Notes under the pieces: generated by a model
What the model was told of the DNA's origin: nothing
The model's input: only the letters and a program-made list of their open reading frames with translations
Databases searched by the model: none
In this document: positions 37,976 to 49,468 of the stretch, in pieces
How positions within the stretch are numbered: the stretch's first letter is position 1
How the letters are laid out: every line of letters starts with the position of its first letter
Assembly (NCBI GenBank): GCA_024275095.1
Contig: JAJRZV010000002.1
Span: 1-49,468, forward strand
Source: a bacterium
GTDB taxonomy: Bacteria > JAJRZV01
Direction of reading: 5' to 3'
DNA length: 49,468 nt
Translations under genes and position numbers: made by a program

Positions 37976-38329
37976 ATGATCAAAAAAGTAGTTTTCACAA
38001 TTAAAGAAGGTCCCTTTTCAGGAACATCACCCTATGCAGCGGTAAAAATGGCCCTTTCAGCGCGGAAGAGAGGAGTGGAAGTGGCGGTATTTTACTATTC
38101 GGAAGGGATTTTGTGCTTGAAGAAGGACCTGGCATCACGCAGCGAGACATTTTTTGAGTATCGCCTCAAGCTGGAAGCGCTTAAAAATGCAGGGATCAAA
38201 ATTCTTGCATGCAGAGCTTCTATGGAACTGCACGGCATGAATGAAAACGAGCTTGTTGATGGTGTCGAGGTCATTGCTTCGATAACCGACTTTATACTCG
38301 ACCCTGAAACACGTGTGCTGGCAGTTTGA
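37976..38329 (+). CDS. DsrE/DsrF-like family protein
   Basis: 117 residues. The fold begins VVFTIKEGPFSGTSPYAAVKMALSARKRGVEVAVFYYSEGILCLKK and ends with FEYRLKLEALKNAGIKILACRASMELHGM and an EVIASITDFIL helix, the pattern of small DsrE-like proteins. A Cys lies in ILACRAS, where related sulfur-carrier proteins may hold a persulfide. No dsr or tus genes are near, so a role in sulfur relay is uncertain. The ribosome site is weak. A terminator follows. Confidence 0.8.
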   Translation: MIKKVVFTIKEGPFSGTSPYAAVKMALSARKRGVEVAVFYYSEGILCLKKDLASRSETFFEYRLKLEALKNAGIKILACRASMELHGMNENELVDGVEVIASITDFILDPETRVLAV

Positions 38330-38524: not shown

Positions 38525-39709
38525 ATGGTATCAAAAGAAGCCCATACAAAGGTTGCGGTTGCCGGCGTATCGCAGGTGGGTTACCGCCGCATTACTGATC
38601 TGTCATTTCCCGAAATGATTTTTGAGGCCTGTCGCCTGGCCCTGGATGATGCAGGTGTTACGCCGGGACAGGTGGAGTGTGTGTTTTTTGGAAGCGGGCC
38701 GGAACTGTTCACCGGAGTAAATTATCCGGAAATGTGGTGTGCTGATGCATCACTTGGTCCTGGACGGCCCTTCATGCGTGTGCACACGGGCGGTACCGTG
38801 GGAATGAGTACCTTTGCTGCTGCGTATTATGCCGTGGCATCGGGAGAATATGATGTGGTGCTGGCGGTTACCGGTGACAAGCTTACGGAAGGTTCTGTTC
38901 AGGCAGGGCTTGCTGCTGTTGCTAACCCCCTGTATAACCGCCGTTTTTCAGCCGGTGCGGTGGGGGGAGCAGGACTGGGTTTTCGCGAGGTGATGCACAA
39001 GAAAGGACTTACTCTTCAGGATGCCACGGTGGTGGCGGTGAAACAAAGAAAAAACGCCCTGAAGAATCCTCATGCTCATCTGCACATAGAGGACATCAGT
39101 GAGGAAAAGGTGAATTCTTCGAAGGTGATTTCCGAACCACTGAGACTTCTTGATTCCTGTCCAACGTCAGACGGTGCAGCAGCCATGGTGCTTGTGAGCG
39201 AGAACGTGGCCGAGAAGTTAAAAAAGGATGTAGCGTGGGTGCTGGCCGTTGCGGGATGCGCAGAGGATTCCCAGTGGCCCGGCAGGGACCACGTAACGAG
39301 GCCGGAAGCATTGATACATGCGATAAGAAGAGCTTATGAACTTGCCGGTATAAAGAACCCAGCGGAAGAGATTGACGTGTTCGAGTTTTACGACCCTTTC
39401 TCTTTCATGGAGTACCTTTACTTGGAGTATTTTGGTCTTGCGTCCTCGCCCGAGGAGGCGCGCGAACTTGTTCACTCGGGTGCAACACGCATAGAAGGTT
39501 CCATCCCGGTTAACCCATCAGGTGGGGTTCTCTCTGCCAATACCATTGGGTGCGCGGCTATGGCACGGGCAGTGGAAGCTGTTCTTCAGGTGACCGGAAA
39601 GGCCGGGGAGCGCCAGGTCCAGGGCGCTCGAACAGCCCTCGCGCATGGATGGGGCGGTGCTTTCCAGTTTCATGTGGTGGCCATTTTTTCACGGGAGGAG
39701 CCAGAGTGA
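38525..39709 (+). CDS. SCP2-type thiolase-like protein lacking the catalytic Cys (possible aldolase)
   Basis: 394 residues with the thiolase fold: VAVAGVSQVGYRR start, helix ACRLALDDAGV, GEYDVVLAVTGDK, and a DSCPTSDGAAAMVLVSE core. The position of the nucleophilic Cys (ACASG) is VHTGGTVGMSTF at about residues 86-96, without Cys. The C-terminal His of GHPxGATG is Asn (SANTIGCAAM), and the usual HDCF is EFYDPFSFMEYLY. These changes resemble Ltp2-type enzymes, which cleave CoA aldols with tyrosines and a DUF35 partner, rather than thiolases. A DUF35 protein follows with overlapping stop/start. Its substrate is unknown. First gene of the cluster. Confidence 0.82.
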   Translation: MVSKEAHTKVAVAGVSQVGYRRITDLSFPEMIFEACRLALDDAGVTPGQVECVFFGSGPELFTGVNYPEMWCADASLGPGRPFMRVHTGGTVGMSTFAAAYYAVASGEYDVVLAVTGDKLTEGSVQAGLAAVANPLYNRRFSAGAVGGAGLGFREVMHKKGLTLQDATVVAVKQRKNALKNPHAHLHIEDISEEKVNSSKVISEPLRLLDSCPTSDGAAAMVLVSENVAEKLKKDVAWVLAVAGCAEDSQWPGRDHVTRPEALIHAIRRAYELAGIKNPAEEIDVFEFYDPFSFMEYLYLEYFGLASSPEEARELVHSGATRIEGSIPVNPSGGVLSANTIGCAAMARAVEAVLQVTGKAGERQVQGARTALAHGWGGAFQFHVVAIFSREEPE

Positions 39710-40110
39710 GTGAACGTGTAGAACACTATCCGGGCAAGCTTGAGCTGCCGTATACATGGCATTATGGAAAAGTATTGTCCCGCTTTTTTGAAGGCTTGAA
39801 GAACATGGAATTTCTCGCATCCCGGTGTCCACGCTGCATGAAGGTGTCGTTTCCTCCCGTCCCGGTGTGCAGTATGTGTTTTGTCCCTGTGGAAGATGAA
39901 CTCATTTCCTTGGAACCCCGGTGCACTGTGGAAACCTATACTATTGTAAAGTTTACCTATCCCGGTCAGTTGATGAAGCCGCCCTATGCTGTAGCCATTC
40001 TCAAGCCCGCAGGAGCGCACACGCGGTTCCACCACCTGATCTGGTGTCCGAACCTGGAGACTTTGCACATCGGCATGGAAGTGGAGCCAGTATGGAGAGA
40101 GGAACGTTAA
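39706..40110 (+). CDS. DUF35 zinc-ribbon/OB-fold protein (partner of thiolase-like protein)
   Basis: 134 residues from GTG 39706, overlapping the previous stop with GGGAGGAG before it. After an N-terminal helix (VLSRFFEGLKNMEFLASRCP) the zinc ribbon has CPRC and CSMC; then the OB-fold begins VETYTIVKFTYPG. This is the DUF35 architecture, known to form complexes with thiolase-fold enzymes (for example ChsH2/Ltp2, BbsA/BbsB) and to bind CoA or the acyl chain. The pair with the preceding gene is typical of these complexes. Confidence 0.88.
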   Translation: MSERVEHYPGKLELPYTWHYGKVLSRFFEGLKNMEFLASRCPRCMKVSFPPVPVCSMCFVPVEDELISLEPRCTVETYTIVKFTYPGQLMKPPYAVAILKPAGAHTRFHHLIWCPNLETLHIGMEVEPVWREER

Positions 40111-40154
40111 GGAGAATTCTTCGATATCAAGTATTTCACGCCGGTGGAGCAAAA

Positions 40155-40715
40155 ATGAAAAACGAACTCGTCATAACCGGATGGCACGAAACCTCCATGA
40201 AGGCTGAAAACGCGGAAGAGAGTCTCCAGGAGATGATTTTCCAGGCCGCCAGAGGTGCACTTGAAAAAGCAGGAATGAGCAGAGACGAAATTGGCACAGT
40301 GATTGTGGCCTCCTGTGATGTGGTTGATGGTGTGAGCATATCCAATGTTTACTCCGTGGGACCTTCCGGTGCTTTTCTCAAGGACGAGTCAAAAATCGAG
40401 GCTGACGGGGGATTCGCCCTTTACTATGCGATGCTCAGGTTGCTTTCTGGAATTTTCGATTCAGCACTTGTTGTAGCATGGGGAAAAGGCTCTAACTTCT
40501 CACGGTTTCACTACTGGTGGACGCAATGGGAGCCGTTTTTTACACGACCGCTGAAACTTTCACAGGCAGAGGTACTGGCACTCCAGGCAAAGGCGTTTTC
40601 AAGAAAGACAGGTTTCAGCGAATCCGATGCAGCGAAAGTGCTTGAGAAGAACCTCCGCAATGCAGCAGCCAATGGTAACGTTGTGAGAACGTGGAAGGAA
40701 AGCAGGAGGATGTGA
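40155..40715 (+). CDS. Thiolase-like protein without catalytic Cys, N-terminal half (before frameshift)
   Basis: 186 residues from ATG 40155 with GGTGGAG. The thiolase start ELVITGWHETSMKAEN, helix QEMIFQAARGALEKAG, IGTVIVASCDVVDG and SALVVAWGKGS are visible. The nucleophile loop reads IEADGGFALYYA (residues 81-92), with no Cys. The frame stops soon after NLRNAAANGNVV, while the next frame, displaced by minus one, continues with the expected segment (next entry). The missing base lies in or near 40680-40705, around GTTGTGAGAACGTGG. The gene is thus broken, or the sequence has a one-base deletion. Confidence 0.75.
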   Translation: MKNELVITGWHETSMKAENAEESLQEMIFQAARGALEKAGMSRDEIGTVIVASCDVVDGVSISNVYSVGPSGAFLKDESKIEADGGFALYYAMLRLLSGIFDSALVVAWGKGSNFSRFHYWWTQWEPFFTRPLKLSQAEVLALQAKAFSRKTGFSESDAAKVLEKNLRNAAANGNVVRTWKESRRM

Positions 40716-41242
40716 GGGGTGAGGTGATAGCCGAACCTTTGAGAGAAGGAGATATTTCCCCTGTTACCGACGGTGCATGTGCAGTGGTGCTGGAAAGGGC
40801 GGAGAATGCACGGGATAAAAAAGGCGTACGAATTGCAGGTGTGGGATTGGGTACAGAAACTTATTACCCCTTCTGGAGAGACCTCTCTGTTCTCAATGCT
40901 GCTGTTCAGGCGTCACGTGTCGCCTTTGAAAGAACAGGGTGGAGTGTTGATGATGTGGATTATTTTGAAGTTGTGGAGAGAACGCCTTATCACGAAGCCA
41001 TGCTTGCTGAAGCGATTGGGATGAAAGTTCGGGATTATCTGGATGGGGGAATGAAAAAGTTTAACCTGTCCGGTGGCGCTCTCGCAGCAGACCCTGAACC
41101 TGCAACAGGACTCGTGAGAATTGTTGAAGCCGCCGGAATTCTTACGGGAAAGTATAACCTCGATGCCGAACGTGTACTTACAGTCAGCGGCTCGGGACTG
41201 GGTTACCAGACCTGCATTGCTTTCGCTCTGGAGAAGGAGTGA
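40691..41242 (+). CDS. Thiolase-like protein, C-terminal half (after frameshift)
   Basis: 183 codons from a GTG at 40691 without convincing independent translation. It contains the C-terminal thiolase half: GKQEDVRGEVIAEPLREGDISPVTDGACAVVL, VDYFEVVERTPYHEAMLAEAIGM and SGGALAADPEPATGLVRIVEAAGI. The His of the usual GHPxGATG is Asp here (AADPEPATG), so both thiolase catalytic residues are absent, as in the first thiolase-like protein. Joined with the upstream half this makes about 360 residues, the normal length. The stop overlaps the ATG of the next DUF35 gene. Confidence 0.75.
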   Translation: MEGKQEDVRGEVIAEPLREGDISPVTDGACAVVLERAENARDKKGVRIAGVGLGTETYYPFWRDLSVLNAAVQASRVAFERTGWSVDDVDYFEVVERTPYHEAMLAEAIGMKVRDYLDGGMKKFNLSGGALAADPEPATGLVRIVEAAGILTGKYNLDAERVLTVSGSGLGYQTCIAFALEKE

Positions 41243-41649
41243 TGAAGAAATACATTAAAGATACCATTTCCATACCGTATCAGTGGACCACTGGACGGGC
41301 TGGCTCAGCATTTCTTACAGCACTTAAAGATGATGGTGTGATACTGGCGGCTCGATGCAGCAGCTGCGGGAAACGCTACCTGCCACCACTTTCGTTCTGT
41401 CCGGCGTGTTTCAGGCATATTGACGAGTATGTAAATGCAGGCAGAGAGGGGGAAGTAAAGGAATTTACAGTAACCCGTGACGGTCGGGTAATAGGTGTGA
41501 TTCAGATGGATGGCGCTGATACTCCGTGGCTGCATGTGATTCTTGAGCCTCCGGAGGATGTGAAGGTTGGAATGCGTGTGAGAGCGAAATTGTGCGAGCA
41601 GCGTAGGGGTTCGATTACGGATATTGAAGGGTTTGAGAGAGTGAAATGA
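41242..41649 (+). CDS. DUF35 zinc-ribbon/OB-fold protein
   Basis: 135 residues from ATG 41242, sharing a base with the previous stop (GGAGAAGGAG before it; GTG 41239 also possible). Zinc ribbon Cys pairs are CSSC and CPAC; the OB-fold part has VKEFTVTRDGRVIGVIQMDGAD and PEDVKVGMRVRAKL. It follows the broken thiolase-like gene as its likely partner and precedes the HMG-CoA-synthase-like fusion with a 4-nt overlap. Confidence 0.87.
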   Translation: MKKYIKDTISIPYQWTTGRAGSAFLTALKDDGVILAARCSSCGKRYLPPLSFCPACFRHIDEYVNAGREGEVKEFTVTRDGRVIGVIQMDGADTPWLHVILEPPEDVKVGMRVRAKLCEQRRGSITDIEGFERVK

Positions 41650-43001
41650 GAGTGCCTGCCCTGAAGGGTATCTGCCTTTATCTTCCGGCATTCAGGATTG
41701 AGAAAGGTCTTATCGCTTCTCAGTACATGCAGCGAGCCAGAGGCACCAGGACTTTTCGATGGTTTGACGAAGATGAGTGCACCATGGCTATCGAGGCTTC
41801 TATGGGTGTGGTTGAAGGTACAGGCGTTGACACTATCGGTTGCGTTATATATGCCGCTGAAAAAGGGCCTTACCGCAGGAAGTCCACAGCTTCTGTGATT
41901 GCGGATGTGCTGGGCCTTTCTACTGACACCCTCACCGTGGATATAACCGGCTCGGAAAGGGTTTCAGCGGAAGGACTTTTGGTGGCGAAGAGGATATGCG
42001 AGGCGACAGGTCAGGAGGTTCTGGTGACAGGAGGCTTTTGTGAGCACGGTGAACCAGGAAGTGATGAGGATATTCATGGAGGTGATGCAGGATGGGCAAT
42101 GGTGGTTGGAGAAGGAGGAGGTATTGTCCTTGAGGAATTTTGGGTTGCTCGAGCGAACGTGTTTGTCAAATGGGAAAGAGGTGAAGATACATATTTCCTT
42201 CCCGATGGATTTACAGTTCCGTTTGAGCTTCTTCCCACTGCTGCAGCTATACTCAACAGAGCCATCGAAAAGTCCGGTGCTTCTAAGGTTGTAATAGGGA
42301 CATCTTCAAATCGATTGCCTTCGCAACTTAAAAGAAAACTCGGTGACAGGAATATTACCCTTTTTCACCACGATTCCACTACCACAGGCGTCCTCGGGTC
42401 AGCAAGCCTTCCGTTTGCTATGGCAGACGCTGTTGAAAAGTGTGAGCCGGGTGAGTCCATTGTTATGCTTGCACCCGGAGACGGTGCCCTCGCTATTACT
42501 GCGAAATCAAGTGATCCTGATAATGTAAAGATTGTTCGGATCAACGCCGAAAATCCTGTAGTGTTTGACCTCTACGGACTCTACAGAAAAATAGTGACAT
42601 ACTCCTTTGAAGAGGCCGATACATCACCCATTGCGTACTGGAGAGACGCGCAGCGGATTTTTCAGCTTCGCGGAGGAAAATGCGGAAATTGCGGGAAGGT
42701 CTTTTATCCTTATTCGGATTTATGTCCGTCCTGTGGTTTTACCCCCGTTCGGGAAACCGTGCCGCTTTCGCGGGAAGGCAGGGTTTTTACCTATACCACA
42801 GACCACATCACTCCGTCACCGATTGGAAAGGTTACTCATGCTGTGGTGGAACTTGAGGGTGGAGGGCGGATTTTTGTTCAGATGACAGATTCCCTGGAAG
42901 AGATGGTGGAAATAGGAGCTCCCGTAAAGTTAGTGATCAGAAGAATTCACTCTGGCGGTGGCATTGAGAATTACGGCTGGAAGGCGAGGATGGTGAAATG
43001 A
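41646..43001 (+). CDS. HMG-CoA-synthase-like protein fused to a C-terminal DUF35 domain
   Basis: 451 residues. Residues 1-330 follow the archaeal-type HMG-CoA synthase/KAS III fold (GICLYLPAFRIEKGLI, DECTMAIEAS, ADVLGLSTDTLTVDIT, VLVTGGFCEHGEPGSD, HDSTTTGVLGSASLPFAMADAVE). Where the reactive Cys is expected (NACYGGTAAL-type loop) the sequence is TGSERVSAEGLL (residues 101-112), without Cys. Residues about 345-451 are a DUF35 module: CGNCG and CPSCG zinc ribbon, then RVFTYTTDHITP and ending WKARMVK. A fused partner removes the need for a separate DUF35 gene. Reaction unknown; decarboxylative or hydrolytic chemistry cannot be excluded. Confidence 0.82.
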   Translation: MRVPALKGICLYLPAFRIEKGLIASQYMQRARGTRTFRWFDEDECTMAIEASMGVVEGTGVDTIGCVIYAAEKGPYRRKSTASVIADVLGLSTDTLTVDITGSERVSAEGLLVAKRICEATGQEVLVTGGFCEHGEPGSDEDIHGGDAGWAMVVGEGGGIVLEEFWVARANVFVKWERGEDTYFLPDGFTVPFELLPTAAAILNRAIEKSGASKVVIGTSSNRLPSQLKRKLGDRNITLFHHDSTTTGVLGSASLPFAMADAVEKCEPGESIVMLAPGDGALAITAKSSDPDNVKIVRINAENPVVFDLYGLYRKIVTYSFEEADTSPIAYWRDAQRIFQLRGGKCGNCGKVFYPYSDLCPSCGFTPVRETVPLSREGRVFTYTTDHITPSPIGKVTHAVVELEGGGRIFVQMTDSLEEMVEIGAPVKLVIRRIHSGGGIENYGWKARMVK

Positions 43002-44140
43002 AGGAAGTGTATGTCATTGGCGCAGGATGCACACCGTTTGGAGATTTGCACACCAGAGATGCTGTGGCTATGGCCCGGGAAGCATCTTTCCAGGCCTTGG
43101 AAGATGCCGGTGTGGATATTTCGGATATTGATATTTTTTACGTGGGGAGCGTGAGGTCTGTCACATCAGGGTCATTCCTGGGCAACGCGCTTGGCGTGCG
43201 CAATAAACCCGTGACCAGGGTGGAGAACTTCTGTGCCAGCGGAATGGATGCGGTGAGACAGGCAGCCATTGCCGTGATGAGCGGACAGGCGAGGATTGCA
43301 TTGGCCGTGGGCGTGGAAAAGCTCCGCGATGCCACGCGAAGAGGGTTGGGGTTCAGGTCGTTTCACCCTGTGTTTGTGTTTGGTGCTACACCCCCGGGGC
43401 TTTTCGCACTGGCAGCTAACCGGTACATGCACACTTACGGAATTGGTCGAGAAACCCTGGCAAAGGTCGCCGTGAAAAATCACCGCAATGGAGCCAAAAA
43501 TCCCCTTGCCCATTTCAGGAAGGAAATCACGGTAGAGACCGTATTGAAAGCACCCATTGTCGCCTATCCCTTTGGCGTATTTGATTGCAGTCCCGTCACG
43601 GACGGTGCCTCTGCAGTGGTGATCGCCAGCAGAGATGTGGCAGAAGGATTGGGTAAAGCTCAGGTCTTCATCCGGGGGTTTGGACTTGCAGTAATGCATA
43701 CTGAACCCATGTATGACCCTTCTTTTAAATACACGGGTTTTCCCGTGACAACAGAGGCGGCAGGACAGGCGTACAAGATGGCAGATATATCGCGCCCACT
43801 CGAAGAGATCAGCTTTGCCGAAGTACACGATTGCTTCACCATGACAGAAATACTGAACTACGAAGACCTGGGCTTTGCGGAGAAAGGCGAGGGGTGGAAA
43901 CTTATCGAAGAGGGGGTTACAGAGCTTGAGGGGAAATTTCCTGTTAACCCGTCGGGTGGACTCAAGTCGTTTGGACATCCCATAGGGGCCACGGGCGCGA
44001 GGATGATTTTTGAAGTTTACAGCCAGTTGACAGGACGCTGCGGAGAAAGGCAGGTGAAAAATGCGCATACAGGTCTGGCACATAATATTGGAGGTCCGGG
44101 AACCGTCTCCACCGTGATGATTCTGAGCTTGAGGTCATGA
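42998..44140 (+). CDS. Thiolase family protein (SCP2-type), catalytic residues present
   Basis: 380 residues. Nucleophile Cys79 in VENFCASGMDAVRQA, His at about 327 in NPSGGLKSFGHPIGATGARM, VHDCFTMTEILNYEDLG and GERQVKNAHTGLAHNIGG. These are the blocks of acetyl-CoA acetyltransferase-like SCP2 thiolases; the second Cys (GGGxG region) reads IGGPGTVST, as common in SCP2-type enzymes. It likely catalyses thiolytic cleavage of a 3-oxoacyl-CoA. No own DUF35 gene is adjacent; the fused DUF35 of the upstream protein could be shared. The ends overlap both neighbours by 4 nt. Confidence 0.9.
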   Translation: MKEVYVIGAGCTPFGDLHTRDAVAMAREASFQALEDAGVDISDIDIFYVGSVRSVTSGSFLGNALGVRNKPVTRVENFCASGMDAVRQAAIAVMSGQARIALAVGVEKLRDATRRGLGFRSFHPVFVFGATPPGLFALAANRYMHTYGIGRETLAKVAVKNHRNGAKNPLAHFRKEITVETVLKAPIVAYPFGVFDCSPVTDGASAVVIASRDVAEGLGKAQVFIRGFGLAVMHTEPMYDPSFKYTGFPVTTEAAGQAYKMADISRPLEEISFAEVHDCFTMTEILNYEDLGFAEKGEGWKLIEEGVTELEGKFPVNPSGGLKSFGHPIGATGARMIFEVYSQLTGRCGERQVKNAHTGLAHNIGGPGTVSTVMILSLRS

Positions 44141-45480
44141 TGCGCCGCCGATACTGGAATGAGAAAATAGAGAAAAAACTGGGCACTCCTGAACTCGATG
44201 CTCTCAGACTCAGAAGGCTAAAGAAAGCCCTCATCTACTTTAAAGAGAATAGTCCCTTTTATCGCAGAAGGTTTAAAGAGGCGGGTTTTGATCCTGAAAG
44301 GATAAAGTCCCTGGAAGATATCAAATATCTCCCGCCGTTTACCAAAGATGACATCAGAATGTCACAGGCGGAGTCCATGGAAAGATACGGACATCCCTAC
44401 GGTATACATCTCACGATAAAACCCCGCGAAATCGCACTTCTATCCGCCACGTCAGGAACTACAGGTGAACCCACGTTCTACGTGTTTGGCAAAGAGGACA
44501 TTAAAGTATGGTGTGAAGTGAGGGCCCGTGCTCTGTGGAGGGTGGGGCTGCGCCCCGGGGATACTCTTATGATAGCCTTCGGTCTGGGCATGTTTGTAGG
44601 GGGTGTACCCAATGTGATAGCTGCACAACATTTTGGACTGGTTACCGTGCCGGTGGGTGCAGAGGGAGGAAGTACAAAGGTGCTCTCGTTTGCACGTTTA
44701 ACCAGACCTAAGGCGCTCATGGGCACCCCTTCACTGGCAAAAATTCTGGTGGAACGTGCTCCGGAAGTTGTGGGAAAGAAAGTAGGAGAGCTGGGCATAA
44801 AGAAGCTCATACTCGGGGGTGAACCAGGTGCTGGAGTGAAAGAGGTAAGGGGATTTCTCTCGAGAGAGTTTGATGCGGAAATTTATGACCTGCAGGGACC
44901 CAACGTGTCCTGTCACCTTCCGGACTACGCAGGTATGCACCGCGTTGGTGACGATTACTACCTTCATGAACTGGTGGACCCGGTGACGAAAGAGCCTATT
45001 CCGCTTGAGGATGGGGCTGAGGGAGAAGTGCTTGTTACGCACCTGTTCAGGGCATCTGCTCCTTTTGTACGGTATGCTCCGGGTGATATTCACAGGGTGT
45101 TTATTTCTCCGTGCTCGTGTGGTTTCAGCGGTTTCAGGACCATGATCGTCGGTCGGACAGATGACATGCTCAAGGTGAAAGGGGTCATTATTTACCCCTC
45201 TACCGTGCAGGGAATCGTTGCGTCCCTGGGTACTCGTCTCACCGGGGAGTTCAGGATTGTTTTGAAGAGCCCGCCCCCCCGTGTTGATGGAACGCTGAAC
45301 CTCCAGGTGGAAGCAGCACCTGATGTGCCCGCCGAAAAGTGGGAACTTATAGCAAGGGAGGTGGAGGAAAAATTCAAGGAAAAAACAGGGATACGACCGA
45401 TGGTGAAGATAGTTTCTGCAGGTACATTTCCCCGTACAGAACACAAAAAAGAATTCTTCATCAGGGAATATGCAAAATGA
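44137..45480 (+). CDS. Phenylacetate-CoA ligase (PaaK)-like AMP-forming ligase
   Basis: 447 residues. Family-specific start RLRRLKKALIYFKENSPFYRRRFKEAGFDPERIKSLEDIKYLPPFTKDDIR, P-loop LLSATSGTTGEPTFYVFG, ILGGEPGAGVKEVRGFL, and the C-terminal GRTDDMLKVKGVIIYPSTVQ with later RTEHKKEFF, matching the PaaK family. It should activate an aromatic or other carboxylic acid with ATP and CoA. In the cluster it is the only acid-activating enzyme, so it is a candidate for the pathway entry step. Cys-rich SPCSCGFSG at about 325-333 is a common feature of PaaK-like proteins. Confidence 0.88.
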   Translation: MMRRRYWNEKIEKKLGTPELDALRLRRLKKALIYFKENSPFYRRRFKEAGFDPERIKSLEDIKYLPPFTKDDIRMSQAESMERYGHPYGIHLTIKPREIALLSATSGTTGEPTFYVFGKEDIKVWCEVRARALWRVGLRPGDTLMIAFGLGMFVGGVPNVIAAQHFGLVTVPVGAEGGSTKVLSFARLTRPKALMGTPSLAKILVERAPEVVGKKVGELGIKKLILGGEPGAGVKEVRGFLSREFDAEIYDLQGPNVSCHLPDYAGMHRVGDDYYLHELVDPVTKEPIPLEDGAEGEVLVTHLFRASAPFVRYAPGDIHRVFISPCSCGFSGFRTMIVGRTDDMLKVKGVIIYPSTVQGIVASLGTRLTGEFRIVLKSPPPRVDGTLNLQVEAAPDVPAEKWELIAREVEEKFKEKTGIRPMVKIVSAGTFPRTEHKKEFFIREYAK

Positions 45481-45869
45481 AAAAATACAGGCCTTTCATG
45501 AAGGGAGTGATTAAGGTAAAGGATGGAGGGAAGGTTGCTCTCATAGGAGGCAGGTGCAGCAGGTGCGGCAAAAGGTTTTTTCCCCGGCGGGTTTACTGTC
45601 CTGCATGTGGAGCAGAGAAAGTGAACGAATTTGAAATTGGGGGCACTGGCATTGTTTACACTTACACCGTGTGTCACGTGGCTCCCCCCGATGCCGAGGT
45701 TCCCTATGCCATCGGATATGTGGATTTTGACGGGGTTCGTGTTTTCGGAAAGTTTGTGAACTGGCAGGAGAGACTTGATATCGGCAAAGAGGTTGAGTTG
45801 ATACCGTGGAAAGAGGGCGTTACGGAAGAGGGGGATGAACTGATCAGTTATCGTTTTGAGGTGAAGTGA
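45477..45869 (+). CDS. DUF35 zinc-ribbon/OB-fold protein (partner of downstream thiolase)
   Basis: 130 residues from ATG 45477 (overlapping the ligase stop by 4 nt). Zinc ribbon CSRCG ... CPACG, then GIVYTYTVCHVAPPDAEVPYAIGYVDFDGVRVFGKF of the OB-fold. The thiolase gene starts at its stop (TGATG). The order DUF35-then-thiolase is like bbsA-bbsB of anaerobic toluene degradation, where both form benzoylsuccinyl-CoA thiolase. Confidence 0.88.
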   Translation: MKKYRPFMKGVIKVKDGGKVALIGGRCSRCGKRFFPRRVYCPACGAEKVNEFEIGGTGIVYTYTVCHVAPPDAEVPYAIGYVDFDGVRVFGKFVNWQERLDIGKEVELIPWKEGVTEEGDELISYRFEVK

Positions 45870-47008
45870 TGAGTTGCGCGTTTGTGGCAGGAGTGGGTAT
45901 GACACGTTTCGGAAGATTTCCGGAACGCTTTATCAAGGATATAGGTGCAGAAGCAGTACTTGAGGCCATCAGGGATGCAGGAGTCAATCCTGCAGAAATA
46001 GAAGTGGCTTACTGCGGACACACCCGTGGCGGCTCCACAGTGTGCCAGCGCATCCTCAATGAGATAGGGATTTCAGGTATTGAAATGGTCAACATGGAAG
46101 ATGCATGTGCTTCGGGTTCCGCGGCTTTTCGTTACGCGTATCTGGCTGTTGCCAACGGTATGGCAGACGTTGTGCTGGCCATTGGAGTGGAAAAGTTAAG
46201 TGACAAAATCAAGGGCGTGATACCACCCCGTAAAGATGACCTTGAGGGACTGTTTGGAAGAATTATGCCCTCTGTATTCGCCATGATTGCCAAGAGACAC
46301 ATGTACCAGTACGGCACAAAGGTGGAGCACTTTGCCCTCGTGTCTTACAAAAATCACCTTAACGCGGTAAAGAACCCACGTGCCATGTATCGCAAAGAAC
46401 TCAGCGTGGAGGAGATTCTCAACTCACCCGTTATATGTGAACCAATCACGCTTTACCAGTGTACAGCCAATGCTGACGGGGCGGCAGCAGCCGTGGTGGT
46501 CTCGGAAAGAAAAATTAAGCAACTGGGCAAGCTGCCCGTACGGATTGCGGCGTCTGTCCTGTGTGCGGGTGGGGCCCGCGTGGAGGACTGGGATTACACG
46601 GTATCGCTCTCGACTGTCAATGCATCACGTCGGGCATACGAAGAGGCAGGTATAGGTCCGGAAGACCTGGATGTGATCGAGCTGCACGACTGCTTCAGCG
46701 TGGCGGAACTTGTGCACTACGAGAACCTGGGATTGTGTCCAAAAGGTGAAGGTGCACGCTTCATAGAGGAAAAAAGGTCTTACATCAACGGGGATGTGGC
46801 TGTCAATCCCTCAGGAGGACTGCTTTCAAAAGGCCACCCCCTGGGCGCTACAGGCCTGGGGCAGGTATACGAGGTCGTCCAGCAGCTGAGGGGCAACTGC
46901 GGTGAGAGACAGGTGGAAAATGCGAGGGTGGGATTAACTCACACCATGGGCGGGGGTGTGAGCGGTCTGGAATCTGGAGCGTGTGCCGTACACATCCTGG
47001 TGAGGTGA
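45869..47008 (+). CDS. Thiolase family protein with catalytic residues present
   Basis: 379 residues from ATG 45869 with GAGGTGAAG (GTG 45866 also possible). Nucleophile Cys80 in VNMEDACASGSAAFRYAYL, His about 323 in NPSGGLLSKGHPLGATGLGQVYE, ELHDCFSVAELVHYENLG, and GERQVENARVGLTHTMGGG. Complete thiolase chemistry is therefore possible. The DUF35 gene before it is the likely partner. Together with the upstream CoA ligase and the downstream acyl-CoA dehydrogenases and hydratase it fits a terminal thiolytic step in a beta-oxidation-like route. Confidence 0.92.
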   Translation: MSCAFVAGVGMTRFGRFPERFIKDIGAEAVLEAIRDAGVNPAEIEVAYCGHTRGGSTVCQRILNEIGISGIEMVNMEDACASGSAAFRYAYLAVANGMADVVLAIGVEKLSDKIKGVIPPRKDDLEGLFGRIMPSVFAMIAKRHMYQYGTKVEHFALVSYKNHLNAVKNPRAMYRKELSVEEILNSPVICEPITLYQCTANADGAAAAVVVSERKIKQLGKLPVRIAASVLCAGGARVEDWDYTVSLSTVNASRRAYEEAGIGPEDLDVIELHDCFSVAELVHYENLGLCPKGEGARFIEEKRSYINGDVAVNPSGGLLSKGHPLGATGLGQVYEVVQQLRGNCGERQVENARVGLTHTMGGGVSGLESGACAVHILVR

Positions 47009-47012
47009 GAAG

Positions 47013-48176
47013 GTGAACTTTCATCTCAGTGAAGAACAAAGAGCTTTAATTGATACAGTGCAGAAATTTCTCGAAAAAGAAGTTGATCCTTTTGTGGACG
47101 AGCTGGACAGAAAGGGGCCCATGGACAAGGATACGGCTCTGGAGTTTCTTCACAAACTCAAGCCCTTTGGATATGTCGGCGGCCAGGTTCCGGTTTCTGA
47201 TGGTGGTGACGGTTTGTCACACCTCACCTACGGGCTTTTGCTTGAAGAATTGAAGAAGGTCTATCCTTCTCTTGGAGGAATTGCATCAATTACTGCCTCC
47301 TGTGCGCGGGTGATATCAGAACACGGCAACAAGGAACAGAAACAGCGGTTTCTTCCACCTCTGCTCAGCGCAGAAAAAATCGGTTGCATGGGCATTACAG
47401 AGCCGGATGCTGGCTCTGATGTAAGGTCTATCAGGACAAAAGGGGTGGTGAAAAAAGACAGGGTGGTTCTTAACGGGACAAAAATGTGGATTTCCAACGG
47501 AACGATCGCTGACATTTGCGTGGTGCTGTTCAGAGCATACGATGAGAATGGCAGTGAACTTGGGTTTACCCGGATCGTAGTGGAAAAGGAAGAGTCACCG
47601 TTCGAAGCGCGAGAACTCCACAAGATGGGTTTGAGATCCTTTCCCACTGCGGAATTGCATTTTGACGAATGCGAGGTGCCCCGGGAGAACGTACTCGGAG
47701 GATTTGGGGAGGCCCTGAAGGGTGTAATGCACGGATTTAACGTCGCCCGGGCCAACGTGGCAGCGGGATGCGTGGGCCTCGCTCAGGGTGCTCTTGACCT
47801 CGCAAAAAGGTATGCGAGAGAGCGAAAACAATTTGGAAAGGAAATTGCGAATTATCAGCTTGTTCAGGAGATGATTGCGGATATGGAAATCAAGGTTGAT
47901 GCGGCAAGGCTGCTCACGTATCGCGTGCTGTGGATGCTGGACGAAGGAATTCCATGTGCTCGAGAGGCATCCATTGCCAAGGCTTATGCCACCGAAGCAG
48001 CAGTGCAGGTGGCTTCAGCCGCTCTCCAGGTTCACGGAGCGTATGGACTTTCGGAAGAGTTTCGGATCGAAAGGTATTTCAGGGATGCACGGTGCTATAC
48101 CATTCCGGACGGAACCACCCAGATTCAAAAATTGATTATTGGAAAGGAGGTGCTGGGAACCGGTGCCTTCCGATAG
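47013..48176 (+). CDS. Acyl-CoA dehydrogenase with Asp at the catalytic-base position
   Basis: 387 residues from GTG 47013 with GAGGTGAGAAG. Blocks: LEKEVDPFVDELDRKG, IGCMGITEPDAGSDVRSIRT, VVLNGTKMWISNG, ELHKMGLRSFPTAELHFDECEVPRENVLG, KQFGKEIANYQLVQEMIADM and QVHGAYGLSEEFRIERYFRDARCYTIPDGTTQIQKLII. In the last block YEGTSEIQ is PDGTTQIQ, so the usual catalytic Glu is Asp (about residue 366), a change found in some acyl-CoA dehydrogenases of cyclic substrates. It probably oxidises the CoA ester made by the PaaK-like ligase. Overlaps the hydratase gene by 14 nt. Confidence 0.9.
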   Translation: MNFHLSEEQRALIDTVQKFLEKEVDPFVDELDRKGPMDKDTALEFLHKLKPFGYVGGQVPVSDGGDGLSHLTYGLLLEELKKVYPSLGGIASITASCARVISEHGNKEQKQRFLPPLLSAEKIGCMGITEPDAGSDVRSIRTKGVVKKDRVVLNGTKMWISNGTIADICVVLFRAYDENGSELGFTRIVVEKEESPFEARELHKMGLRSFPTAELHFDECEVPRENVLGGFGEALKGVMHGFNVARANVAAGCVGLAQGALDLAKRYARERKQFGKEIANYQLVQEMIADMEIKVDAARLLTYRVLWMLDEGIPCAREASIAKAYATEAAVQVASAALQVHGAYGLSEEFRIERYFRDARCYTIPDGTTQIQKLIIGKEVLGTGAFR

Positions 48177-48903
48177 TCTCATTCTTGAAGAAAAGGGCGG
48201 TGTTCTGGTGCTCACCATTAACCGCCCGGAGCACAAGAACGCCTTGAACATAGATGTATTGCAAAGATTGAAGCATGCGTGGGAGGAATTTAACAGGGAG
48301 TCTCGCCTCAAGGTGGCGATACTCACGGGTGCTGGCTCAGAGGCATTTTCTGCCGGTGCAGACCTGAAAGAGATTGCCCGTACAAAAGGCAAAAGAAAAA
48401 AGAGACCCTCTGGCATTCACAAGGGTGTGAAGGTGAAAAAGCCTGTCATTGCTGCTGTTAACGGTCTGGCATACGGAGGCGGGTTTGAGCTGGCCCTGGC
48501 ATGTGACATACGCGTGGCTTCAAAAAATGCCACCTTTGCGCTCAGGGAGGTAACCCTGGGCTTTATGCCGGGAGGCGGTGGAGTTGTACGGCTGGCCCGG
48601 GTTGCCCATCCGGGTTACGCGCTTTATTTACTGCTCACAGGAAAGCCCGTTACAGCACAGGAAGCATACGATGCGGGAATAATAGATTTTATCACGGACG
48701 AGGGGAAGGCCCTGGATAAAGCACTGGCTATTGCAGATGAAATAGCGGCCAATGAACTGGAATCGCTGATTGCCATAAAAGAGTGCTTTTATTCTTCCAT
48801 TGACCTTTCTCTTGAAGAGGCATTGAAAAAGGAAACGTCAGAGGTGAGGAAATTAGCACGGAGGAGCGCTTTTGAAAAACATCTGGAGAGGTTCAAGAAG
48901 TAG
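48163..48903 (+). CDS. Enoyl-CoA hydratase/isomerase (crotonase family)
   Basis: 246 residues from GTG 48163; a strong AAAGGAGG lies about 12 bases upstream, a little far, and the frame is open from 48139 (TTG). The oxyanion-hole segments are EAFSAGADLKEIA and AYGGGFELALACDIRVAS; both hydratase glutamates are present, Glu109 (GGFELA) and Glu129 (LREVTLGFMPGGGG), consistent with water addition to a 2-enoyl-CoA. A basic KGKRKKRP stretch at 76-83 is unusual. It follows the acyl-CoA dehydrogenase as in beta-oxidation. No 3-hydroxyacyl-CoA dehydrogenase is seen within the window. Confidence 0.92.
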   Translation: MPSDSLILEEKGGVLVLTINRPEHKNALNIDVLQRLKHAWEEFNRESRLKVAILTGAGSEAFSAGADLKEIARTKGKRKKRPSGIHKGVKVKKPVIAAVNGLAYGGGFELALACDIRVASKNATFALREVTLGFMPGGGGVVRLARVAHPGYALYLLLTGKPVTAQEAYDAGIIDFITDEGKALDKALAIADEIAANELESLIAIKECFYSSIDLSLEEALKKETSEVRKLARRSAFEKHLERFKK

Positions 48904-49468
48904 ATGAAATTGACGGCAGAAGAGATTCAAATTCAAGAAGTTGCGCGACGGTACGCACGTGAAAGAATTGCTCCCGTCGTTGAACAATACGAGTCGCTGG
49001 GGACATTTCCGCTGGAGATGGTTTTGGAAATGGGAGAGTACGGATTCTTTGGAGCGGCCTTTCCTGAAGATGTGGGAGGTACGGGAGCTGGTTACAGGGC
49101 ACATGCTCTCATTGTGGAAGAGATCGCGGCTGTATGGTCGTCGTTGAGGGCCTTGTTCAACACCAACGGACTGACCGGTGCCATGACCATTTACAGGCAC
49201 GGGGGCTCTCGCTGGTACGATTGTGTAAAAAAGCTCGTGAAGGGCGAGTGGATAGGAGCGTTCGCACTTACCGAGCCGGGTGCCGGGTCGGACGTGGCAT
49301 CCATTTCTCTCAGGGCAGAGAAAGTGGAAGGAGGATACGTGCTCAACGGGACAAAGATCTGGATTTCGCACGCACCAATTTTCGACGTTGCTGTGGTGTT
49401 TGCACGCACGGACCCTGCCAGGAGGAAAGAGGGACTCTCTGCATTCATTGTGTTTTCTCAAACGGAAG
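48904..49468 (+). CDS. Acyl-CoA dehydrogenase, N-terminal part (runs off window)
   Basis: 188 codons from ATG 48904, immediately after the hydratase stop, with AGGTTCAAGAAG before it; the frame is open to the window end. Visible blocks are the N-terminal helices EEIQIQEVARRYARERIAPVVEQYE, GFFGAAFPEDVGGTGAGYRAHALIVEEIAAVWSSL, and the FAD-site IGAFALTEPGAGSDVASISLRAEKVEGGYVLNGTKIWISHA. This is a second acyl-CoA dehydrogenase beside the one at 47013; the two may work as a pair or on successive intermediates. Catalytic-base region is outside. Confidence 0.9.
   Translation, partial: MKLTAEEIQIQEVARRYARERIAPVVEQYESLGTFPLEMVLEMGEYGFFGAAFPEDVGGTGAGYRAHALIVEEIAAVWSSLRALFNTNGLTGAMTIYRHGGSRWYDCVKKLVKGEWIGAFALTEPGAGSDVASISLRAEKVEGGYVLNGTKIWISHAPIFDVAVVFARTDPARRKEGLSAFIVFSQTE

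Follow-up and report, generated by a model that had tools for sequence, protein, structure and literature searches.

The cleavage of branched sterol side chains between C24 and C25 has been attributed in a review to a heteromeric aldol-lyase formed by Ltp3 and Ltp4 (PMC6678751), and the corresponding genes of Mycobacterium tuberculosis, ltp4 (Rv3522) and ltp3 (Rv3523), are neighbors together with Rv3521 (PMC6429209). Aldolases of the Ltp2–ChsH2 and Sal–Shy kind likewise have a thiolase fold without a Cys nucleophile, a DUF35 partner, and a Tyr in a YD motif that published mutagenesis has found to be required for the aldolase reaction. In a third described system, PhlABC, the key Cys and Glu are missing from the PhlA subunit, and PhlC alone takes part in catalysis. 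Here, we describe a gene cluster that draws on relatives of all of these. It lies at the end of a 49,468-nucleotide contig (JAJRZV010000002.1, assembly GCA_024275095.1), which is in its entirety the window analyzed and which we refer to as C13; the genome is 2.45 Mb in size and 97% complete. A single run of genes on the plus strand extends from position 38525 to the contig end in the order T1, DUF35, T2 (split between two frames), DUF35, T3, T4, a PaaK-like ligase, DUF35, T5, an acyl-CoA dehydrogenase, an enoyl-CoA hydratase, and the start of a second acyl-CoA dehydrogenase. The five thiolase-superfamily proteins (T1 to T5), four DUF35 modules, and accompanying enzymes named in an initial annotation of this DNA are thus all present according to Pfam and NCBIfam.

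A Cys-less thiolase-fold pair

Among NCBIfam models, T1 (38525 to 39709) is best matched by PRK08313 (363.5 bits, cut-off 514) and each half of T2 by PRK07937 (73.8 and 77.5 bits, cut-off 419), models that we take to represent Ltp3 and Ltp4. The first half of T2 (40155 to 40715) covers model positions 4 to 179, and the second (40691 to 41242), which also matches PF22691, covers positions 186 to 349. The initial annotation had stated that three of the five thiolase-like proteins lack the nucleophile Cys and that the first two also lack the C-terminal His, and alignment bears this out: the nucleophile loop reads HTGGTVG in T1, it is deleted at the thiolase Cys position in T2, T3 has a Glu there, and the His of the GHP motif is replaced by Asn in T1 and by Asp in T2. 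Where thiolases have the His of the HDxF motif, T1 has Tyr289 (FYDPF), in alignment with the Tyr that is catalytic in Ltp2 (YDHF) and in Sal (YDCY). Neither Tyr289 nor Asn339 varies among 18 T1-type homologs, which were picked by similarity rather than by motif. The AlphaFold2 model of T1 (predicted local distance difference test score [pLDDT] 88, predicted template modeling score 0.91) matches the folds of SCP2 thiolases, 6esq, Ltp2 (template modeling score [TM] 0.81), and Sal (TM 0.83), and its low-confidence loop, residues 127 to 140, corresponds to a loop that most thiolases have in ordered form and that shows disorder in both Ltp2 and Sal.

In a 73-row tree (quick method, midpoint root), T1 fell in a T1-type clade and T2 in a T2-type clade, each with actinobacterial PRK08313/PRK07937 pairs, while Ltp2 and Sal grouped with thiolases on a starred branch (99*) outside of which the T1-type proteins lie. 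Because of this placement, T1 and T2 are neither ordinary thiolases nor members of the Ltp2/Sal group, and judging from sequence they are an Ltp3-type/Ltp4-type pair homologous to the actinobacterial heteromeric sterol aldol-lyase. The tree and the family-wide alignments also rule out misalignment as the origin of the missing Cys, and the Cys-less state is far from chance, since the residue losses are family-wide and the pair recurs across phyla.

The resemblance to Ltp3–Ltp4 lies in an adjacent Cys-less pair of the PRK08313/PRK07937 kind accompanied by two DUF35 domains, here encoded at 39703 to 40110 (PF12172 and PF01796; 7-nt overlap with T1) and 41239 to 41649 (identified by Pfam), the presumed partners of T1 and T2. 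The adjacent actinobacterial pairs exceed the cut-offs of both models and adjoin a DUF35-like protein of about 310 to 340 amino acids that, judged by its length, is probably double; those of Tsukamurella and Streptomyces adjoin such a double protein as does a second pair on contig C57, discussed below. However, T1 and T2 have only about 40% and about 30% identity, respectively, to the Tsukamurella pair, their two DUF35 genes are separate and interleaved with the pair, and no sterol genes were recognized. Relative to Ltp2–ChsH2 and Sal–Shy, T1 differs in its clade, in its invariant Asn, and in having a degenerate partner as a separate subunit. A pathway for steroids or sterol side chains in which T1 and T2 perform the exact Ltp3/Ltp4 step is, in our estimate, quite improbable. 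The homology of the pair and an IpdE2-like short acyl-CoA dehydrogenase on C57 (89 bits) would fit such a pathway, but both proteins score below the Ltp3/Ltp4-like cut-offs, their closest named relatives are in Planctomycetota, spirochetes, Actinomycetota, Syntrophomonadaceae, and Clostridia, some of them without COX1, and the genome has no P450 or Rieske ring hydroxylase match, anaerobic steroid routes not having been searched for.

Of 73 located T1-type genes (a number that includes 11 repeat retrievals of a locus already counted), 65 have a T2-type neighbor, and two DUF35 domains lie close by in most. Among the eight exceptions, three spirochete loci (L120, L124, and L127) look genuine, and the others are contig-edge cases or were miscounted through overlapping open reading frames. 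Named carriers comprise Planctomycetota, Leptospirales and other spirochetes, Actinomycetota, Syntrophomonadaceae, a Clostridia bacterium, and a deltaproteobacterium; COX1 is missing from 5 of the 10 carrier genomes checked, although in draft genomes such absence is weak evidence. The genome studied here itself contains further copies of the module, one on contig C8 (L074, 4845 to 11503) in the order TetR, two acyl-CoA dehydrogenases, T2-type, T1-type, DUF35, DUF35, another on C27 (L075), and a partial one on C125 (L080).

T2 is one gene split by a frameshift near 40691 to 40715, as its homologs are single open reading frames of about 350 to 390 amino acids, and the break may have arisen in the assembly, from strain variation, or as a genuine lesion. 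The split, together with the absence of Cys from both proteins and of the known acid residues from T1, would be expected if T1 and T2 were non-catalytic CoA-binding or scaffold proteins or if the module were decaying. We regard this as unlikely, however, as other intact copies exist in the genome (C8 and C57), and the invariance of Tyr289 and Asn339 across divergent homologs and the conserved pairing argue for a selected function.

Two arrangements at related loci may be recorded here. In spirochete loci such as L106 (11767 to 14043), the T2/T1/DUF35 genes are followed by the gene for an AMP-binding acyl-CoA ligase that bears a DUF35 OB domain at its C terminus, a fusion that may link the ligase to the aldolase. 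On a plasmid of Simplicispira suum (L095, 6343 to 13839), one gene run combines a T2-type/T1-type pair with an Ltp2-type aldolase (YDHF, with the second Tyr).

The T3, T4, and T5 modules

T3 (41646 to 43001) joins an HMG-CoA synthase (HMGCS)-like domain to a C-terminal DUF35 module, as seen with Pfam, NCBIfam, and alignments of the fusion family. It is of the HMGCS/KAS-III-like type and not an SCP2-type thiolase, and it has Glu at the Cys of the FACKAG motif of archaeal-type HMG-CoA synthase, so that the catalytic Cys of that enzyme is missing. The Cys is absent from all 20 distinct fusion-length HMGCS-DUF35 homologs, whereas three unfused HMGCS homologs retain FACKAG, and the partner thiolases examined beside such fusions retain their Cys. 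The T3 model is weaker than that of T1 (pLDDT 73.5 for T3) and in its fold most closely matches HMGCS from an archaeal complex (6esq_I); PhlA was also matched. A Glu near the HMGCS catalytic Glu is kept in T3 and absent from most of its relatives. Proteins of this architecture directly adjoin a thiolase in other bacteria, including on a plasmid of Novosphingobium sp. ES2-1 (L039, 14971 to 17528), where the fusion and thiolase module is clustered with a P450, acyl-CoA dehydrogenases, and a FadD3-like ligase. A scan of the genome's contigs with T3 gave no match, and literature searches found no paper on the HMGCS-DUF35 fusion.

Since the fusions are Cys-less beside a Cys-containing thiolase in the cases checked, much like the inert PhlA in PhlABC, T3 is probably a non-catalytic scaffold for T4 (42998 to 44140), with which its gene overlaps by 4 nt. 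An active HMG-CoA synthase or an aldolase is not favored for T3, as the entire fusion family lacks the Cys. T4 and T5 have intact Cys, HDCF, and GHP motifs by alignment and, on this basis, are predicted to be ordinary thiolases, T4 of the SCP2 type in alignment and tree.

The HMGCS-like, thiolase, and DUF35 composition, with a Cys-less subunit matching PhlA, resembles that of PhlABC and related thiolase–HMGCS–DUF35 complexes; the putative complex here differs in the fusion of DUF35 to the HMGCS-like domain, the catabolic surroundings, and the ordinary thiolase site of T4. This composition, which recalls PhlA–PhlB/PhlC and MucABC, would also fit a biosynthetic cluster in which T3 and T4 act as a PhlABC-like C-acyltransferase and T1 and T2 run in the aldol or Claisen direction to make a natural product. 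Such a function seems rather unlikely: T4 scores higher against acetoacetyl-CoA and SCP2-type thiolases (181 to 254 bits) than against PhlC (71 bits), the T3/T4 module has relatives located among catabolic-looking genes, and several acyl-CoA dehydrogenases, hydratases, and ligases share the run.

T5 (start at 45866 or 45869, end at 47008) and the adjacent DUF35 gene (45474 to 45869), its presumed partner, resemble BbsB and BbsA in sequence. T5 matches 7pxp_C at 280 bits and groups with BbsB in a 5-row set (97*) that also holds SCP2 thiolase. However, both proteins are far below the BbsB and BbsA equivalog cut-offs (318 bits for T5 against 750; 61 bits for the DUF35 protein, model NF053627, against 250), and no PFL-like glycyl-radical (fumarate-adding) enzyme was found. 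In two other loci (L071 and L073), thiolase homologs have Ser at the nucleophile position and keep HD and GHP.

Probable continuation, genome context, and a proposed pathway

The reverse of contig C57 starts with 317 bases that match window positions 49152 to 49468 at 315 of 317 positions, inside the same acyl-CoA dehydrogenase gene, and because of this terminal match the cluster very likely continues there. Beyond this gene, C57 encodes an Ltp4-like and an Ltp3-like protein, a double DUF35 protein, an acyl-CoA dehydrogenase, MaoC, an acyl-CoA dehydrogenase plus the short one noted above, a short-chain dehydrogenase/reductase (SDR), an enoyl-CoA hydratase, a second SDR, an acyl-CoA dehydrogenase, and FadD. 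Strain variation is probably the reason why C13 and C57 stayed separate contigs. Once joined, they encode seven thiolase-superfamily proteins, five of which lack the Cys. The 3' extension proposed in the initial annotation would add further beta-oxidation genes.

No gene of the genome matches COX1, cytochrome bd, P450, the Rieske ring hydroxylase alpha subunit, or PFL-like glycyl-radical enzymes, and none exceeds the cut-off for dsrA or BamA. As these families are unmatched at 97% completeness, the gene content suggests an organism without oxygen respiration and without oxygenase ring attack, probably an anaerobe, and it is from a poorly sampled lineage. These absences also led us to reject an aromatic or fumarate-addition route (BamA, glycyl-radical enzyme), an oxygenase-based steroid route (P450, Rieske), and sulfate reduction (dsrA), and the aromatic or steroid-like substrates considered initially are not supported.

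We consider it fairly probable that the cluster encodes a CoA-dependent anaerobic beta-oxidation with retro-aldol steps that acts on a beta-branched, probably isoprenoid-like or alicyclic, acid. As we infer the catalysis and subunit roles, the ligases would form the CoA ester of the acid, and acyl-CoA dehydrogenases and hydratases (crotonase and MaoC) would yield a 3-hydroxyacyl-CoA. Where the beta carbon bears an oxidizable alcohol, the SDRs would produce a 3-ketoacyl-CoA for thiolysis by T4, held on the inert T3-DUF35 scaffold, or by T5 with its BbsA-like DUF35 protein. At a tertiary beta carbon a ketone cannot form, and the T1–T2 heteromer with its DUF35 domains would therefore split the hydroxyacyl-CoA by retro-aldol cleavage into a ketone and a shorter acyl-CoA, with T1 as the catalytic subunit using Tyr289 as base and T2, having lost the nucleophile loop, as the structural half of the dimer.

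This reading is favored by the presence of the aldolase Tyr in T1 and the absence of the thiolase Cys and His, by the match of its low-confidence loop to the disordered loop of Ltp2 and Sal, and by the grouping of T1 and T2 with actinobacterial pairs, given that Ltp3–Ltp4 is described as a heteromeric aldol-lyase. The recurrent pairing with a T2-type gene and DUF35 domains, the acyl-CoA dehydrogenase, enoyl-CoA hydratase, MaoC, SDR, and ligase genes of the same run, and the lack of COX1, cytochrome bd, P450, and Rieske ring hydroxylase are also in its favor. The combination of thiolysis and aldol cleavage put forward initially is accordingly kept for T4 and T5 on the one hand and for T1 and T2 on the other, but T3 drops out as an aldolase candidate, as its whole fusion family is Cys-less and it resembles the non-catalytic PhlA.

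Several points weigh against the retro-aldol reading. No cluster gene fixes the substrate, and neither T1 nor T2 reaches the curated cut-off of its Ltp3/Ltp4-like model. Neither of the known general acids is present in T1, which has Asn339 at Tyr344 of Ltp2 and Pro291 at Cys304 of Sal, so that its mechanism would need a third solution. T2 is frameshifted in the assembly, and the window copy may therefore be inactive or misassembled. Finally, the join of C13 and C57 depends on a 317-bp overlap containing two mismatches.

Little is understood of how microbes without oxygen overcome the block that branched carbons pose to beta-oxidation, and literature searches found no fitting paper on the retro-aldol breakdown of branched acids by anaerobes. 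More tentatively, and with the balance of probability still against it, Ltp3/Ltp4-type pairs may be widespread heteromeric thiolase-fold retro-aldolases that act beyond sterols, also in anaerobes, and bypass the beta-branching block by a third active-site solution (Tyr and an invariant Asn in one subunit, with a loop-less partner), stacked twice here with two thiolase modules. If so, the pair would gain a testable function in Planctomycetota, spirochetes, Actinomycetota, and Clostridia, a new name would be due to many proteins now annotated as thiolases or lipid-transfer proteins, and HMGCS-DUF35 fusions would no longer be read as HMG-CoA synthases. The initial annotation knew of no described pathway with this gene set, and indeed the window's complete gene order occurs in none of the fetched loci, but the T1/T2 pair does have a described relative in the Ltp3–Ltp4 aldol-lyase of C24-branched sterol side chains. 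The single modules are of known kinds; the novelty lies in the double stacking, in the setting, and in the third pattern of active-site residues.

Cluster layout and remaining genes

The cluster genes are operonic. Their close packing on one strand is as first described, but the overlaps, first given as mostly 1 to 4 nt, measure 4 or 7 nt at most junctions, with exceptions of +44, +4, 0, and −38 nt. The four DUF35 modules are the three separate genes located above and the C terminus of T3. The PaaK-family acyl/aryl-CoA ligase (44137 to 45480) scores 200.7 bits with TIGR02155, below the equivalog cut-off, and carries an AMP-binding_C_2 domain (Pfam). Downstream of T5 are an acyl-CoA dehydrogenase (47013 to 48176; Pfam), an enoyl-CoA hydratase (48139 to 48903; ECH_1), whose true start is perhaps slightly downstream, and the acyl-CoA dehydrogenase that is cut by the contig end (48904 to 49468), assigned by family matches and by the overlap with C57. 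Directly upstream of the cluster, a small DsrE-like protein is encoded at 37976 to 38329.

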